DNA from: Thioclava atlantica
Lineage (GTDB): Bacteria > Pseudomonadota > Alphaproteobacteria > Rhodobacterales > Rhodobacteraceae
Length of the DNA: 64,000 nt
Assembly (NCBI RefSeq): GCF_000737065.1
Contig: NZ_AQRC01000001.1
Span: 310,001 to 374,000, forward strand
Direction: 5' to 3'
Below the pieces are notes generated by a model, which saw only the letters and a list, made by a program, of their open reading frames with translations, had not been told where the DNA came from and did not search any database. A program made the position numbers and the translations under genes. Positions 9,164-49,720 of this stretch are shown here, in pieces (the stretch's first letter is position 1; every line of letters begins with the position of its first letter).

Positions 9164-10204
9164 TCAGGAAACCGCCCCCAGCCGGGCGAGCGCCCATCGG
9201 GCCGCCTCCGCCACCACCGGGTCTTCCGCCCCCAGATGCGGCCGCGCCGCCGCCGCCAGCGCCGGATCGCCGGAATTGCCGATCGCGTAGAGCACGTTGC
9301 GCAGGAACCGGTCGCGTCCGATCCGCTTGATCGGCGAGCCCGCGAAGCGCGCCCGGAACGCGGCATCGTCAAGCGCGGCCAGCTCCGCGAGCGGCGGCGC
9401 GCCGACCCCGCCGTGATAGCTCGCCTCGCGCGCTTCGGCGGCGAACTTGTTCCAGGGGCAGATCGCGAGGCAATCGTCGCAGCCATAGATCCGGTTGCCG
9501 AGCTTCTCCCGCAACTCCGGCGCGATCGGTCCCTTGTGCTCGATCGTCAGGTAGGAGATGCAACGCCGCGCATCGAGCCGGTAGGGCGCGGGAAAGGCCT
9601 CGGTCGGGCAGATGTCGAGACAGGCCCGGCACGAGCCGCAATGGCTGATCTCGGGCGCGTCCGGCGCCAGCTCCACGGTGGTGAAGATCGCGCCGAGGAA
9701 GAACCAGCTCCCGAGATCGCGCGCCAGCAGGTTCGTATGCTTGCCCTGCCAGCCCAGCCCTGAGGCCTGACCGAGCGGCTTCTCCATCACCGGCGCGGTA
9801 TCGACGAAGACCTTGATCTCTTCGTTCTCCACCTGATCGAGCAGCCAGCGCCCGACGCGCTTGAGCCGCTTCTTCACCAGGTCATGGTAGTCGCGGCCCT
9901 GCGCATAGGCCGAGATCACGCCGCGATCCCGCTGCGCCAGGAGCGCGAGCGGGTCGTAGTCGGGCGTGTAGCTCTCGGCCAGCATCACCACCGAGCGCGC
10001 CTCGGGCCAGAGTGCGGCCGGGTCGCCGCGCCAATTGCGGCGCTCCTCCATCCAGCCCATCTGCCCGTGCATCCCCGCGCCGACAAAGGCCTCGAGCCGC
10101 CCCGCCGCCTCAGGGATCGCGTCGGGCGTGGTGATCCGCGCCTTCGAGAACCCCTCCTCGAGGGCTTTCGCGACCAGCCGTGTCTTCAGGTCCTCCACGG
10201 CCAT
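9164..10204 (-). CDS. queG: epoxyqueuosine reductase
   Basis: A 346-residue cobalamin-dependent iron-sulfur enzyme that reduces epoxyqueuosine to queuosine in tRNA. The two 4Fe-4S motifs are visible as [12 protein letters not shown] and [10 protein letters not shown]. The N-terminal part binds cobalamin, with the [26 protein letters not shown] region containing the conserved aspartate used in catalysis. The C-terminal about 60 residues form a HEAT-like repeat ([17 protein letters not shown]). The ATG lies directly after a half-copy of the dispersed repeat described separately, which appears to supply its ribosome-binding region. It follows the glutathione transferase gene on the same strand. 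Confidence 0.95.
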
Positions 10205-10262
10205 GGTTCCAAATGCTCCAAATATCCTGCGGGGGTCTGGGGGTGCAAAACCCCCAGCCGTC
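10205..10262 (-). repeat. half-copy of dispersed repeat plus G/C hairpin in the queG leader
   Basis: On the minus strand a CTGGGGG/CCCCCAG hairpin (loop TTTTGCA) is followed by CCGCAGGATATTTGGAGCATTTGGAACC and then the queG ATG. The ATATTTGGAGCATTTGGAA part matches one arm of the palindrome at 42240-42310. Confidence 0.7.
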
Positions 10263-13890: not shown

Positions 13891-13979
13891 GCGGGGGTCT
13901 CCTGATCTTGCGCGCGCCAGTCTAGACGCGGGGGCGTCCAAGTCAAACCGATGTCGGGGCCGATGCGGGGGAGTGGGGT

Positions 13980-14073
13980 GAGAGGCTGGACAGCGACCCA
14001 AGCGGGGCTCGTTGCGGCTGCTTCCTTCCGGACCTGACCGGGTTGGCGAGGCGCTCGCCCGCGCCAACCTCTC
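13980..14073 (-). ncRNA. ffs: signal recognition particle RNA (small bacterial type)
   Basis: The minus strand contains CGGTCAGGTCCGGAAGGAAGCAGCCG, the near-invariant domain IV core that binds Ffh with the GGAA tetraloop. The ends GAGAGGTTGG and CCAGCCTCTC pair to close the hairpin, giving an RNA of about 94 nt. It lies about 90 bases upstream of dnaX on the same strand, a common position. Exact ends are inferred from the terminal pairing. Confidence 0.93.
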
Positions 14074-14161
14074 GAGGGCCGATATAGGAAAGCCGAACCA
14101 GATTCGCAAGCGTTGAGCGGGAAAGAGGGGGGCTCTGCCCCCGTCGCGCGGATGCGCGCCT

Positions 14162-14232
14162 CCCCCGGGATATTTCGATCAAGAGGAAGAGGCTCCGATC
14201 CTGTCTTCCTCTTGACGCAAATATCCCGGGGG
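14162..14232. repeat. long intergenic palindrome, copy 1
   Basis: Left arm 14162-14190 (CCCCCGGGATATTTCGATCA, then AGAGGAAGA) pairs with right arm 14204-14232 with only three mismatches around a 13-base loop. Flanking G/C-rich segments (about 14127-14142 and 14248-14262) also pair, extending the foldback. It lies just downstream of the ABC permease gene and probably stops transcription before the SRP RNA. Confidence 0.8.
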
Positions 14233-14263
14233 TGAGGGCGAAGCCCGAGGGGGCAGCGCCCCC

Positions 14264-15025
14264 TCAGCCCGGCTGCCGCTCGGCCCAGCCGGCGAAGATC
14301 TTCTCGAGCAGGACGACCGCGTAATAGAGCACGATCCCGAGGGCGGCGAGGGCGATCAGCACCGCGAACATCAGCGGATAGTCGCCATTGGTCTGGCCCG
14401 ACAGGAAGAGTGCGCCGAGCCCCTTGCCATGGGGGGAGATGATCTCGACGAGGTTAGTGCCGATGAAGGCGAGGGTGACCGAGACCTTCAGCGCGCCGAA
14501 GAATTCCGGCAGCGTCTTGGGCAGCGCGATCTTGCGGAAGATGGTGAATTTCGACGCGCCGAGCGCGCCGAGGATGTCGCGATATTCCGGCTCCAGCGTC
14601 GAGAGGCCGATCCCCACCGAGACCGCGATCGGGAAGAAGGAGATCAGGAAGGCCATCAGCACGGTGTTGAAATCGTGCTGGCCGATGAAGAGAAGCGCCA
14701 GAACCGGCACCACCGTCGCCTTGGGGATCGCGTTGAAGCCCACAAGGAGCGGGTAGAGCGCGTCGCGCGCGCTGCGCGAGAAGCCCATGATCATGCCGAG
14801 AAAGGTCCCGAAGAGGATCGAGAGCGCGAGCCCCGCCACGGTGCGCCAGAGCGTCTGCCAGCTGTCGATCAGGAACAGCTGCCAGTAGCGGATATAGGCT
14901 TCGGGCAGGTCCGAGGGCGAGGCCATCACGTAATTCGGCCAGCCATTGATCCAGACGATGAACTCCCAGATCGCGAGAAAGGCGAGGATCGACAGGATCG
15001 GGGTGGCGATCTTCTTTCCGCTCAT
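14264..15025 (-). CDS. ABC transporter permease, NitT/TauT type
   Basis: A 253-residue membrane protein with about six helices and the inner-membrane permease signature in the EYRDILGALGASKFTIFRKIALPKTLPEFFGALKVS loop, which contacts the ATPase. It belongs to the SsuC/TauC group. It overlaps the ATPase gene by ATGA and ends next to a long palindrome. Together with the ATPase and the NMT1-like binding protein it forms one importer. The substrate could be a sulfonate, a nitrogenous compound or a thiamine-like precursor; the sequence does not decide. Confidence 0.9.
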   Translation of the reverse strand: MSGKKIATPILSILAFLAIWEFIVWINGWPNYVMASPSDLPEAYIRYWQLFLIDSWQTLWRTVAGLALSILFGTFLGMIMGFSRSARDALYPLLVGFNAIPKATVVPVLALLFIGQHDFNTVLMAFLISFFPIAVSVGIGLSTLEPEYRDILGALGASKFTIFRKIALPKTLPEFFGALKVSVTLAFIGTNLVEIISPHGKGLGALFLSGQTNGDYPLMFAVLIALAALGIVLYYAVVLLEKIFAGWAERQPG

Positions 15026-27731: not shown

Positions 27732-28073
27732 GGCCGGAGGGAGCGCTGCCTCTCCGCCGCCGGATGCCGAAAATTCACACGCAAAAAGGGGGCGCTGCCC
27801 CCGCCGCCTGGGGGCGGCTCCCCCGGGATATTTGGATCAAGAGGAAGCGCGTATCTTTCTTCCTCTTGACGAAAATATCCTCCGGGGGTGCGGGGGTGGA
27901 AAACCCCCGCCGCGCCGGTCTCCGCCCGAGATTCCTTGTGAAAGCCCTTCACGTCCTGGTTCTCGTTGGTCGATCGGGATCGATCCGCTCCACTGCCCAG
28001 CCCATTGACCGCCGTCAAAGGACGCAGGCGGGTTCCGTGCGATGGTGCGGGTACATGTTCAGGGAGTGTGCCC
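27732..28073. other. intergenic region between gltX and the bactofilin-like gene
   Basis: A 342-base gap. It holds the second long palindrome (27820-27888) and, around it, paired G/C-rich segments (GGGGGCGCTGCCCCC near 27788 and GGGGGTGGAAAACCCCC near 27893). The right part up to 28073 contains AGGGAG at 28061 as ribosome site for the next gene. No credible reading frame lies inside. Confidence 0.6.
27820..27888. repeat. long intergenic palindrome, copy 2
   Basis: Left arm 27820-27847 (CCCCCGGGATATTTGGATCA, then AGAGGAAG) pairs with right arm 27859-27888 (CTTCCTCTTGACGAAAATAT, then CCTCCGGGGG). It is nearly identical to copy 1 and lies after gltX, where it probably acts as a terminator. Confidence 0.8.
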
Positions 28074-42237: not shown

Positions 42238-42310
42238 CGCGGGGGATATTTGAGGCATTTGGAAGCGGGCGCGACGCCGGGCTTCCAAATGCTCGAAATA
42301 TCCCCGCCGG
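42238..42310. repeat. long intergenic palindrome, copy 3 (variant type)
   Basis: Left arm CGCGGGGGATATTTGAGGCA, then TTTGGAAGC (about 42238-42265), pairs with right arm GCTTCCAAATGCTCGAAATA, then TCCCCGCCGG (42281-42310). The GATATTT core matches copies 1 and 2, but the inner part reads GCATTTGGAAG instead of ATCAAGAGGAAG. It separates the convergent DMT and choV genes and probably ends transcription from both sides. Confidence 0.8.
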
Positions 42311-45964: not shown

Positions 45965-46546
45965 ATGCCGAAGCTTGGAGCAGAGCCTATACGCCGCGCC
46001 GCGCTGGTGAAAGCGACGATTGAGACCGTCGGCGAGGCCGGATCGCTCGATGTCACGGTCGCGCAGATCGCGCGGCGCGCGGGCATGTCGTCGGCGCTGG
46101 CACATCATTATTTCGGCTCGAAGGAGCAGATCTTCCTCGCCGCGATGCGCGCGATCCTGTCGATCTACGGGGCGGAGGTGCGCGGCGCGCTGGCGACCGC
46201 GCGCGCCCCGCGCGACCGGGTGCGGGCGGTGGTGATGGGGTCTTTCGCGGCCGGCTCGTTCCGGCACGAGGCGATCGCGGCCTGGCTGAACTTCTACGTT
46301 CTCGCGCAGTCGAGCGCCGATGCGCGCCGGCTGCTGCATGTCTATCAGCGTCGCCTGCGTTCGAACCTGGTGCACGGGCTGCGACCGCTGGTGGGCGCGC
46401 GGGCCGGGGCCGTGGCCGAGGGCTTGGGCGCGCTGATCGACGGGGTCTATATCCGCGCCGCGCTGGTGGGGGGCGAGCCCGACCGGGACGCCGCCTGCGA
46501 TCTGGTGCTGGCGCATCTGGAAAAGGAATTGGAGGGCGTGCAATGA
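45965..46546 (+). CDS. betI: TetR-family choline-responsive repressor
   Basis: A 193-residue TetR regulator. It begins [26 protein letters not shown], close to known BetI proteins, with the helix-turn-helix [31 protein letters not shown]. BetI represses choline genes and is relieved by choline. Its stop overlaps the betB start (ATGA). The palindrome just upstream is its likely operator. Confidence 0.93.
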
Positions 46547-47994
46547 GAGCGCAACCGAAGGCGAGCCATTTCGTCAATGGCGCGTGGATGGAAGACGAGG
46601 CGGGCGACGCGCTGATCGTCACCTATCCCGGCACCGGCGAGGTGATCGCGAAGCTGCATGCGGCGACGCCCGCGGTGATCGACGCCGCGATCGAAGGCGC
46701 CGTGCAGGCGCAAAAAGACTGGGCCGCGCTGCGCCCGGTCGAGCGGGGGAGGGTTCTGACCCGTGCCGTCGCGATCATCCGCGAGCGCGCCGAGGAACTG
46801 GCGCAGCTCGAGACGCTCGATACCGGCAAGCCGATTCAGGAGACCCGCGAGGCCGATTGGCCCTCGGGGGCCGAGGCGCTGGAATATTTTGCGGGGCTCG
46901 CGCCGACGCTGACCGGCGAGACGATGCCGCTGGGCGGCGATTTCGCCTATACGATCCGCGAGCCGCTGGGCGTCTGCGCCGGGATCGGGGCGTGGAACTA
47001 CCCGAGCCAGATCGCCTGCTGGAAGGCGGCGCCGGCGCTGTCGACCGGCAATGCGATGGTGTTCAAACCCTCCGAGATGACGCCGCTGGGCGCGTTGAGA
47101 CTGGCCGAGATCTTCATCGAGGCGGGGATGCCCGCGGGCGTGTTCAACGTGGTCCAGGGCTTCGGGCCGGTGGGCGCGGCGCTCTCGAGCGATCCGCGGA
47201 TCGCAAAAGTGTCGCTGACCGGCTCGGTGCCGACGGGCCGGAAGGTCTATCAGGCGGCGGCTGCGGGCATGAAGCATGTCACGATGGAGCTGGGGGGCAA
47301 GTCCCCGCTGATCGTTTTCGAGGATGCCGATCTGGAAAGCGCGATCGGCGCGGCGATGCTGGGGAATTTCTATTCCTCGGGGCAGATCTGCTCGAACGGG
47401 ACGCGGGTCTTCGTGCAGAAGGGGATCAAGGAGGCGTTCCTCGCACGGCTGAAGGAGCGCACCGAAAAGATCGTCGCGGGCGATCCGCTCGACGAGGCCA
47501 CGCAATTCGGCCCGCTGATCTCGGCGGCGCAGTTCGACAAGGTGATGTCCTATATCGAGACCGCGAAGGATGAGGGCGCGCGGCTGGTCTGCGGCGGCTC
47601 GGCGGGCAATGAGGGGCCGCTTTTCGTGCAGCCCACGGTCTTTGCCGATGTGACCGACGCGATGACCATCGCGCGCAAGGAGATCTTCGGTCCGGTGATG
47701 TCGGTGCTCGAATTCGAGACCGAAGAGGACGTGATCGCGCGCGCCAACGACACGCAGTTCGGCCTCGCGGCGGGGGTCTTCACCGGCGATCTGGCGCGCG
47801 GGCACCGCGTTGTCGGCCAGCTTCAGGCGGGCACCACCTGGATCAACGCCTATAACCTCACCCCGGTCGAGATGCCCTTCGGCGCGGTGAAGCAATCGGG
47901 ATTCGGGCGCGAGAATTCGCGCGCAGCGGTCGAGCACTACACCCAGCTCAAGTCGGTCTATGTGGGCATGGGGCCGGTCGAGAGCCCTTACTGA
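46543..47994 (+). CDS. betB: betaine aldehyde dehydrogenase
   Basis: A 483-residue NAD(P)-dependent aldehyde dehydrogenase that oxidises betaine aldehyde to glycine betaine. The cofactor region has [21 protein letters not shown] and [12 protein letters not shown]. The catalytic glutamate lies in [12 protein letters not shown] and the catalytic cysteine in [47 protein letters not shown] is the usual C-terminal block. It is second in betIBA; no betC sulfatase lies between. Confidence 0.97.
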
Positions 47995-48010
47995 GACACG
48001 CCGGGAGAGG

Positions 48011-48067
48011 CCGGGGGGCTGTCTGCCCCCCGGACCCCCCGAGGATATTTTCGTCAAGAGGAAGATG
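48011..48067 (+). repeat. half-copy of dispersed repeat at the betA start
   Basis: A GGGGGGCTGTCTGCCCCCC hairpin is followed by CCCCCCGAGGATATTTTCGTCAAGAGGAAG and then ATGATG of betA. It matches the arms of palindromes 1 and 2. The AGAGGA inside the repeat is the only plausible ribosome-binding sequence for betA. Confidence 0.7.
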
Positions 48068-49720
48068 ATGGCGCAGGCTGCGGAATTCGTGATCGTTGGA
48101 GCGGGCTCGGGCGGCTCGGCGCTGGCCTATCGGCTGGCGGAAGCGGGGCGCGAGGTTCTGGTGATCGAGCATGGCGGCTCGGATGCGGGACCGTTCATCC
48201 AGATGCCGGGCGCGCTGAGCTATCCGATGAACATGCCGGTCTATGACTGGGGTTTCGCCTCGGAGCCCGAGCCGGGGCTCGGCGGGCGCCGCCTCGCGAC
48301 GCCGCGCGGCAAGGTGCTGGGCGGCTCCTCGAGCATCAACGGCATGGTCTATGTGCGCGGTCATGCGCGCGATTTCGACCATTGGGAGGAAAGCGGCGCG
48401 CGGGGCTGGGGCCATGCCGATGTGCTGCCCTATTTCAAGCGGATGGAGCACTGGCACGGCGGCGAGAGCGAATGGCGCGGGCGCGCCGGGCCGCTCCATG
48501 TGACCCGCGGGCCGCGCGCCAATCCGCTCTTCGACGCTTTCGTCGAGGCGGGGCGGCAGGCGGGCTACCCGGTGACCGACGACTACAACGGTGCGCGGCA
48601 GGAAGGCTTCGGCCCGATGGAGGCGACGATCTGGAGGGGGCGGCGCTGGTCGGCGGCCAATGCCTATCTGCGTCCGGCACGAAAGACCGGAAAGCTGCGC
48701 ATCGTGCGGGCGCTGGCGCGGCGGGTGGTGTTCGAGGGCACCCGCGCGGTGGGGGTCGAGGTCGAGCGCAAGGGCCGGATCGAGGTGATCCGCGCCGGCC
48801 GCGAGGTGGTGCTGGCGGCAAGCTCGATCAACACGCCGAAGCTGCTGATGCTCTCCGGGATCGGCCCGGCGGAGCATTTGCGGGCGCGCGGCGTCGAGGT
48901 GCTGGCGGACCGGCCCGGCGTGGGCGGCAACCTGCAGGACCATCTCGAGGTCTATATGCAATTCGCCGCGCGGGAGCCGGTCACGCTCTTCAGGTATTGG
49001 AACCTCGCGGGCAAGGCCTGGGTGGGTGCGCAATGGCTGTTCTCGAAGGGCGGCGTGGGCGCGTCGAACCAGTTCGAGGCCTGCGGCTTCATCCGTTCCG
49101 ATGCCGGGATCGATTATCCCGATATCCAGTATCATTTCCTGCCCATCGCGGTGCGCTATGACGGCAAGGCCGTGGCCGAGGGGCATGGCTTCCAGGCGCA
49201 TGTCGGGCCGATGCGGTCGAAATCGCGCGGCACGGTGCGGCTGCGCTCGGACGATCCCGCGGCCAAGCCCGAGATCCGGTTCAACTACATGAGCCATCCC
49301 GACGACTGGACGGAGTTCCGCAAATGCGTCCGGCTGACGCGGGAGATCTTTGCCCAGCCCGCGATGGCGGGGCATGTGAAGCACGAGATCCAGCCCGGAC
49401 CGGCGGTCGAGAGCGACGAGGAGATCGACGCCTTCATCCGCGAGCATGCCGAGAGCGCCTATCATCCCTGCGGCACCGCGCGGATGGGCGCGGCGGATGA
49501 CCGCGAGGCGGTGGTCGATCCCGAAGGGAGGGTGATCGGGGTCGAGGGGCTGCGGGTGGCCGACAGCTCGGTCTTTCCGCGCATCACCAACGGCAATCTC
49601 AATGCGCCCTCGATCATGGTCGGCGAGAAGATCGCCGATCATCTGCTGGGCCGCGATCCGCTGCCGCGCGAAAATCTCGAGCCCTGGGTCGCGCCGAACT
49701 GGCAGGTGGCGCAGCGCTGA
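48068..49720 (+). CDS. betA: choline dehydrogenase
   Basis: A 550-residue GMC-family flavoprotein that oxidises choline to betaine aldehyde. The FAD dinucleotide motif is [40 protein letters not shown] and [22 protein letters not shown] are GMC signatures 1 and 2, and the active-site histidine region is [13 protein letters not shown]. Two adjacent ATGs exist (48065, 48068); the second gives the better spacing to AGGA. The two betI-betB and betA parts are separated by a 73-base gap holding a repeat half-copy. Confidence 0.96.

Follow-up and report, generated by a model that had tools for sequence, protein, structure and literature searches.

The window analysed here, a stretch of 64,000 nt of the Thioclava atlantica genome (contig NZ_AQRC01000001.1), contains betI and betB upstream of betA. 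All three genes scored above their NCBIfam cut-offs (for betA, 815.8 bits with TIGR01810 against a cut-off of 732.1). The distance from the betB stop codon to the first ATG of betA is 70 nt, and this gap contains an arm of a dispersed repeat (Table 1).

Table 1. The betB-betA junction and other repeat arms in the window
Feature	Position	Strand	Basis or remark
Second arm adjoining a start codon, with tail GGAGCATTTGGAACC	10207..10220	-	Precedes the ATG of called gene 9164-10204
Palindrome (converging arm pair), between a minus-strand gene end and the SRP RNA gene	14168..14226		Fold z -7.17 (14130-14270)
Palindrome (converging arm pair)	27826..27880		Fold z -4.34 (27790-27925)
betB, betaine-aldehyde dehydrogenase	46543..47994	+	NCBIfam PRK13252 and TIGR01804 above cut-off; arm follows betB end
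Arm hairpin 1, CCGGGGGGC-TGTCT-GCCCCCCGG	48011..48033	+	Sequence; minimum-energy fold of 48010-48085
Second C-run, CCCCCC	48035..48040	+	Same length as G-run and C-run of the hairpin (6,6,6)
Core GAGGATATTT	48041..48050	+	Sequence, repeat pattern
Tail TCAAGAGGAAG, including AAGAGG (48056-48061), the presumed Shine-Dalgarno site	48054..48064	+	Repeat pattern
betA, choline dehydrogenase	48068..49720	+	NCBIfam TIGR01810; start from comparison with G003 and G001

The arm in the betB-betA junction

As the original prediction had it, a repeat arm lies directly before betA, and positions 48041-48064 are its core and tail, here separated by the three bases TCG. What had been described as a half-copy of 22 nt proved to be a whole arm of about 48011-48064, with hairpin, second C-run, core and tail. 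The usual order of an arm, read by eye, is a GGGGGCGCTGCCCCC-like hairpin 1, then hairpin 2, which is variable, the second C-run, core and tail; the betA arm is of a short form, with one hairpin and no hairpin 2. Its TTTTCGTCAAGAGGAAG, at 48048-48064 (+), has an identical copy at 27859-27875 (-). Allowing up to three mismatches, the window contained five matches to this sequence, the other three carrying one to three mismatches, against 0.03 expected from shuffles.

The tail is immediately followed by ATGATG, which offers two in-frame ATGs, at 48065 and 48068. Since two same-genus relatives (G003 and G001) have one nearby betA ATG each, at the site of 48068 by residue count, 48068 is the better betA start. 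AAGAGG ends 6 nt upstream of this ATG and is the sole Shine-Dalgarno-like word within 20 nt ahead of the start. The earlier statement that no other such sequence is present holds for these last 20 nt and not for the gap as a whole, where GAGG, GGAG or AGGA words also occur at 48004, 48007 and 48041-48042. Because those words are too far from the betA start, only the group at 48058-48059 stands at ribosome-binding distance.

Scans of 47800-48200, the betA locus, gave no hairpin-plus-T-run match and no consensus promoter. At gathering score, Rfam returned one tRNA and the SRP RNA for the whole window and nothing else; with E values up to 1, positions 47950-48150 gave five sub-threshold matches (microRNA, lncRNA and flavivirus families), none relevant. 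Note that the SRP RNA gene, at 13977-14073 (-), adjoins the palindrome at 14168-14226.

A family of repeat arms at gene ends

The strict pattern GGATATTTN{3,9}AAGARGAA, which fixes the base ahead of GATATTT as G, matched 68 times in the 3.93-Mb genome (30 forward, 38 reverse), and the reversed-pattern control matched 0 times. With the genes around the arms called by a purpose-built codon model, 29 arms fell in convergent gaps, 18 sense and 14 antisense arms in co-directional gaps and just one in a divergent gap; four lay at a stretch edge and two overlapped a called gene. The arms favour gene ends, because convergent gaps hold fewer bases than divergent ones (6,202 against 13,108 of the 58,323 intergenic bases in 440 kb, contig C2 plus the window). 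In support of this, the nearest upstream gene was on the same strand in 49 of the 68 arms, at a distance of 17-154 nt (median 48), and in 40 of these 49 the gene end was 68 nt away or less. Arms at 1-9 nt before a same-strand ATG numbered only five of 68 (betA, C4:272958, C5:222460, C5:73828 and C6:139651). The suggestion that the palindromes evolved from leader half-copies is not supported by these mainly gene-end positions. In the same 440 kb, TCAAGAGGAAG occurred 10 times, always within an arm and never in a called gene.

Hairpin sequences differ from copy to copy, and core and tail are constant. Hairpin 1 was recognised in 61 of the 68 arms. In these, G-run, C-run 1 and C-run 2 had correlated lengths (Spearman 0.59, 0.48 and 0.69, the last being C-run 1 against C-run 2), with p-values that are only a guide because the arm copies are related. 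All three runs were of equal length in 40 of the 61 (5,5,5 in 29; 4,4,4 in six; 6,6,6 in five), as though either C-run were a possible pairing partner for the G-run. Single sense arms in co-directional gaps made up 7/12 of the short form, as at betA, against 4/43 of the long form (Fisher p 0.0009; 55 arms compared, with seven lacking hairpin 1 and six at edges or overlapping genes omitted).

A looser pattern gave 110 arms (a few probably matched by chance) in the stretches of this genome that were examined; most stretches had been picked for arms, so 110 is no genome-wide count. The tails read CAAGAGGAAG in 67, CATTTGGAAG in 20, YAGGTGAAG in eight and otherwise in 15, and the genome has at least five tail families (for example in stretches L178, L181 and L185). 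The set included 29 inverted pairs, 18 with the same tail family and 11 mixed, and a rule of one tail family per inverted pair was thus rejected. In the window, GCATTTGGAA words form such a pair at 42255-42292, representing a second tail family.

Besides T. atlantica, the repeat family extends to other Rhodobacteraceae. A looser core-and-tail pattern, which counts overlapping matches twice, matched in 43 of 61 genomes: the 16 of the same genus had 3 to 171 matches, 13 of the 21 other genomes of the family had at least 10 (up to 201), and the 24 genomes outside the family had 0 to 3, as did the reversed control per genome.

Some known systems share features with the arms. Intrinsic terminators likewise place a GC-rich hairpin after stop codons, and 29/68 arms are in convergent gaps; unlike terminators, the arms have in their core, GGATATTT, a poor T-run that is followed by a constant tail. 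DNA uptake sequences of the Neisseriaceae occur in thousands of copies, intragenic ones being common (PMC3630211). As occurs with the arms, they have species-specific spellings, sometimes more than one per genome, and form inverted pairs, which in the Neisseriaceae are associated with terminators (PMC3630211). We rejected an uptake sequence because the arm has as few as 68 strict copies and because, over 440 kb, 0/10 tails fell inside a called gene. Among the matches listed from the open-licence PMC literature, we saw no description of this repeat element.

Spelling dialects and the betA leaders of relatives

The surprising part of the finding is that the repeat is spelled in dialects. GATATTT..CAAGAAGAA had 0 matches in the T. 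atlantica genome, 87 in G001 and 65 in G003. We read 71 G001 arms, of which 19 were placed by both flanks in the T. atlantica stretches examined; placement covered part of this genome, and the 52 unplaced arms are uninformative. Fifteen of the 19, betA included (at 13 junctions, with inverted pairs at two), read CAAGAGGAAG in T. atlantica and CAAGAAGAAG in G001. The base before GATATTT was G in 15/15 T. atlantica arms and A in 14/15 G001 arms, paired counts that carry a selection, the G001 loci having been chosen by their A tail and most T. atlantica stretches by the G before GATATTT. The hairpin was nearly the same in both genomes at several of the placed sites. At the other four sites there was no matching T. 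atlantica arm: one was empty (L237), one had a different tail in the corresponding position (L252) and two had no arm (L238 and L241).

In G003, where the search left the core and tail positions open, the variable bases of core, pre-tail and tail read A-T-A in 57 of 80 arms, G-C-G in 22 and G-T-A in one. Thus, two spellings coexist in this genome with almost no mixtures. The same three positions read G-T-G in 63 and G-C-G in three arms of the T. atlantica stretches, and A-T-A in 68 and G-T-A in two arms of the G001 stretches. Base pairing between the co-changing core and tail positions was rejected, as both go from G to A.

The shared spelling may be driven by a binding factor, replacement by a sub-family or gene conversion; whole arms are less likely to have undergone simple gene conversion, as the hairpins and the three bases separating core from tail have not been made alike. 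As a tentative explanation, which we consider possible and still rather less than probable, core and tail may form a genome-specific word for a trans-acting factor (a protein or uptake machinery) and be respelled in concert. The presumed ribosome-binding site at betA (GAGG in T. atlantica, GAAG in G001) would then be rewritten as a by-product, rather than through selection acting on betA alone. If a factor does read the word, the Rhodobacteraceae would have a gene-end recognition system, none such having been seen among the matches listed from the open-licence PMC literature, and G003, where two spellings coexist, would be the genome in which to seek that factor.

To follow the leader itself, we used 16 genomes of the genus, which left 15 readable betA leaders, that of T. 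atlantica (G000) included, as betA is cut in G005. An arm-like core, defined with a widened pattern that includes GAGTATTT and GATTTT, preceded betA in 12 of the 15 (G000, G001, G002, G003, G006, G007, G009, G010, G011, G013, G014 and G015) and was missing in G004, G008 and G012. The tails of these 12 leaders had six spellings: TCAAGAGGAAG (G000, G009, G014), CCAAGAGGAAG (G003), TCAAGAAGAAG (G001), CCAAGGGGAAG (G010, G013, G015), CCAGATGAA (G002, G006, G007) and GCAAATGGAAA (G011). The search for further copies of each tail covered 10 of the 11 arm-bearing relatives, G011 being left out, and the betA spelling recurred elsewhere in eight (G001, G002, G003, G009, G010, G013, G014 and G015). The leader is therefore not something conserved in species that lack the repeat, a result that would have counted against the original prediction. 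In G006 and G007, GAGTATTT..CCAGATGAA is present at betA alone, genome-wide, and copies of the AAGARGAA kind number 45 and 33, respectively. In these two genomes the leader departs from the main spelling, and concerted spelling is not a general rule.

Among 15 betA loci of other genera, a sense arm-like core was found in two (G031 and G027); reading by eye added a full inverted pair in G035 and a reversed core further up in G020 and G017.

The tail as a probable ribosome-binding site

That dispersed repeats can supply genes with signals is known in broad terms. The betA leader is a short-form arm of a gene-end repeat of the Rhodobacteraceae, and we consider it probable that its AAGAGG serves the ATG at 48068 as a Shine-Dalgarno site of modest strength. 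The arm, consisting of a hairpin, a second C-run, a GGATATTT-like core and an 11-nt tail, would belong to the end of betB and at the RNA level may be a 3'-end hairpin, or one for processing or stabilisation. Since betA follows this arm at once, the tail comes to lie in the ribosome-binding position, where ribosomes would probably use AAGAGG. A repeat word with species-specific spelling would thereby sit inside the presumed start signal of betA and change alongside the other copies in close relatives.

Judged from the sequence, AAGAGG is likely to be the ribosome-binding site of betA. The duplex energy of the tail, computed with an assumed 16S 3' end, was -5.9 kcal/mol for the ATG at 48065 and -6.1 for that at 48068; the exact 16S 3' end GGATCACCTCCTTT had no match in the assembly. 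Among 378 called genes, this ranks betA at the 31st (48065) or 34th (48068) percentile, the gene starts having been partly chosen by Shine-Dalgarno likeness. The tail of betA is weaker than the gene median (-7.8), the median of the in-coding control being -4.0.

The earlier claim that a half-copy leaves free a site that the full hairpin hides finds partial support. Unpaired means were taken for AAGAGG, AAGAGGAAG and ATGATG. In the predicted folds, AAGAGG was unpaired at a mean of 0.85 in the betA leader and paired in both palindromes of the window; ATGATG was unpaired on average at only 0.34. In the minimum-energy folds of five contexts, the ATG at 48065 was paired every time, and AAGAGG was paired at one or more of its bases in four. 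As for the proposal that a half-repeat has become a translation signal, a copy of the repeat does stand at ribosome-binding distance, and its use there is our inference.

Alternatively, the arm might be nothing more than the betB 3' end, serving termination, processing or stability; betA would then be translated by coupling or from a leader independent of Shine-Dalgarno pairing, and the likeness of the tail to a ribosome-binding site would be chance, due to a repeat word rich in purines. In line with this, just five of 68 arms stand so close before an ATG, and the arm at 10207-10220 (-) has in the same place a weaker tail, GCATTTGGAACC, a weak Shine-Dalgarno match with an energy at the 13th percentile. 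Across the 12 same-genus arm leaders scored, tail strength at betA lay between the 12th and the 51st percentile, and the low ranks in G001 (12th), G002 (19th) and, from another genus, G031 (15th) suggest that translation of betA may not depend on a Shine-Dalgarno tail. At betA, the position of the arm is better kept than the Shine-Dalgarno strength. Against the alternative stand the usable distance of AAGAGG, which lies 6 nt from 48068 and is the sole candidate in the last 20 nt, and the 70 nt from the betB stop to the first betA ATG, which would be far for simple coupling, so we regard a role at the betB end alone as unlikely.

More doubtful still is that the arm is a REP-like miniature mobile element, moved by a RAYT-type transposase, of which one copy landed before betA. 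REP/BIME sequences (GTAG- and CGTC-tagged) have many intergenic hairpin copies with several sub-families per genome, which like the arms are single or in inverted pairs (PMC3733652). In the main text of that paper, the words Rhodobacter, Paracoccus, Ruegeria and Roseobacter are absent (PMC3733652). The high copy number, the hairpins, the 29 inverted pairs of the 110-arm set and the whole arm of G001 at the site that is empty in T. atlantica (L237) would all agree with such an element. However, the arms keep core and tail constant while their hairpins vary by copy, and 15 of the 19 placed G001 arms have a T. atlantica arm at the same place. In addition, no match to Y1_Tnp (RAYT, PF01797) was found in the T. 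atlantica genome or in 10 of the 12 same-genus relatives searched, and several of these 10 are arm-rich. Two of the 12, G007 and G010, have Y1_Tnp (RAYT-like) genes.

Finally, a regulatory leader specific to betA (riboswitch-like or a protein site) and unrelated to the repeat, which the arm-like element kept in 12/15 same-genus genomes could suggest, is very improbable, given that 67 other places carry this core and tail pattern, that the 12 leaders have six tail spellings, and that the Rfam matches comprised only the tRNA and SRP RNA in the window and five sub-threshold ones at the leader.

The exact tail followed by ATG was also searched in named genomes. It gave 34 matches in 33 stretches, chiefly of Thioclava and other Rhodobacteraceae, whose genes were called with a model trained on this window. 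No called start coincided with 25 of the 34, so most such strings are not evident start signals; some nevertheless open long frames, such as one of 434 codons in L108. The ATG begins a called gene in seven, and L116 has a called start 30 nt further on. In an uncultured Thioclava (L122), whose leader matches that of G009, the tail and ATG open a betA frame of 551 codons.
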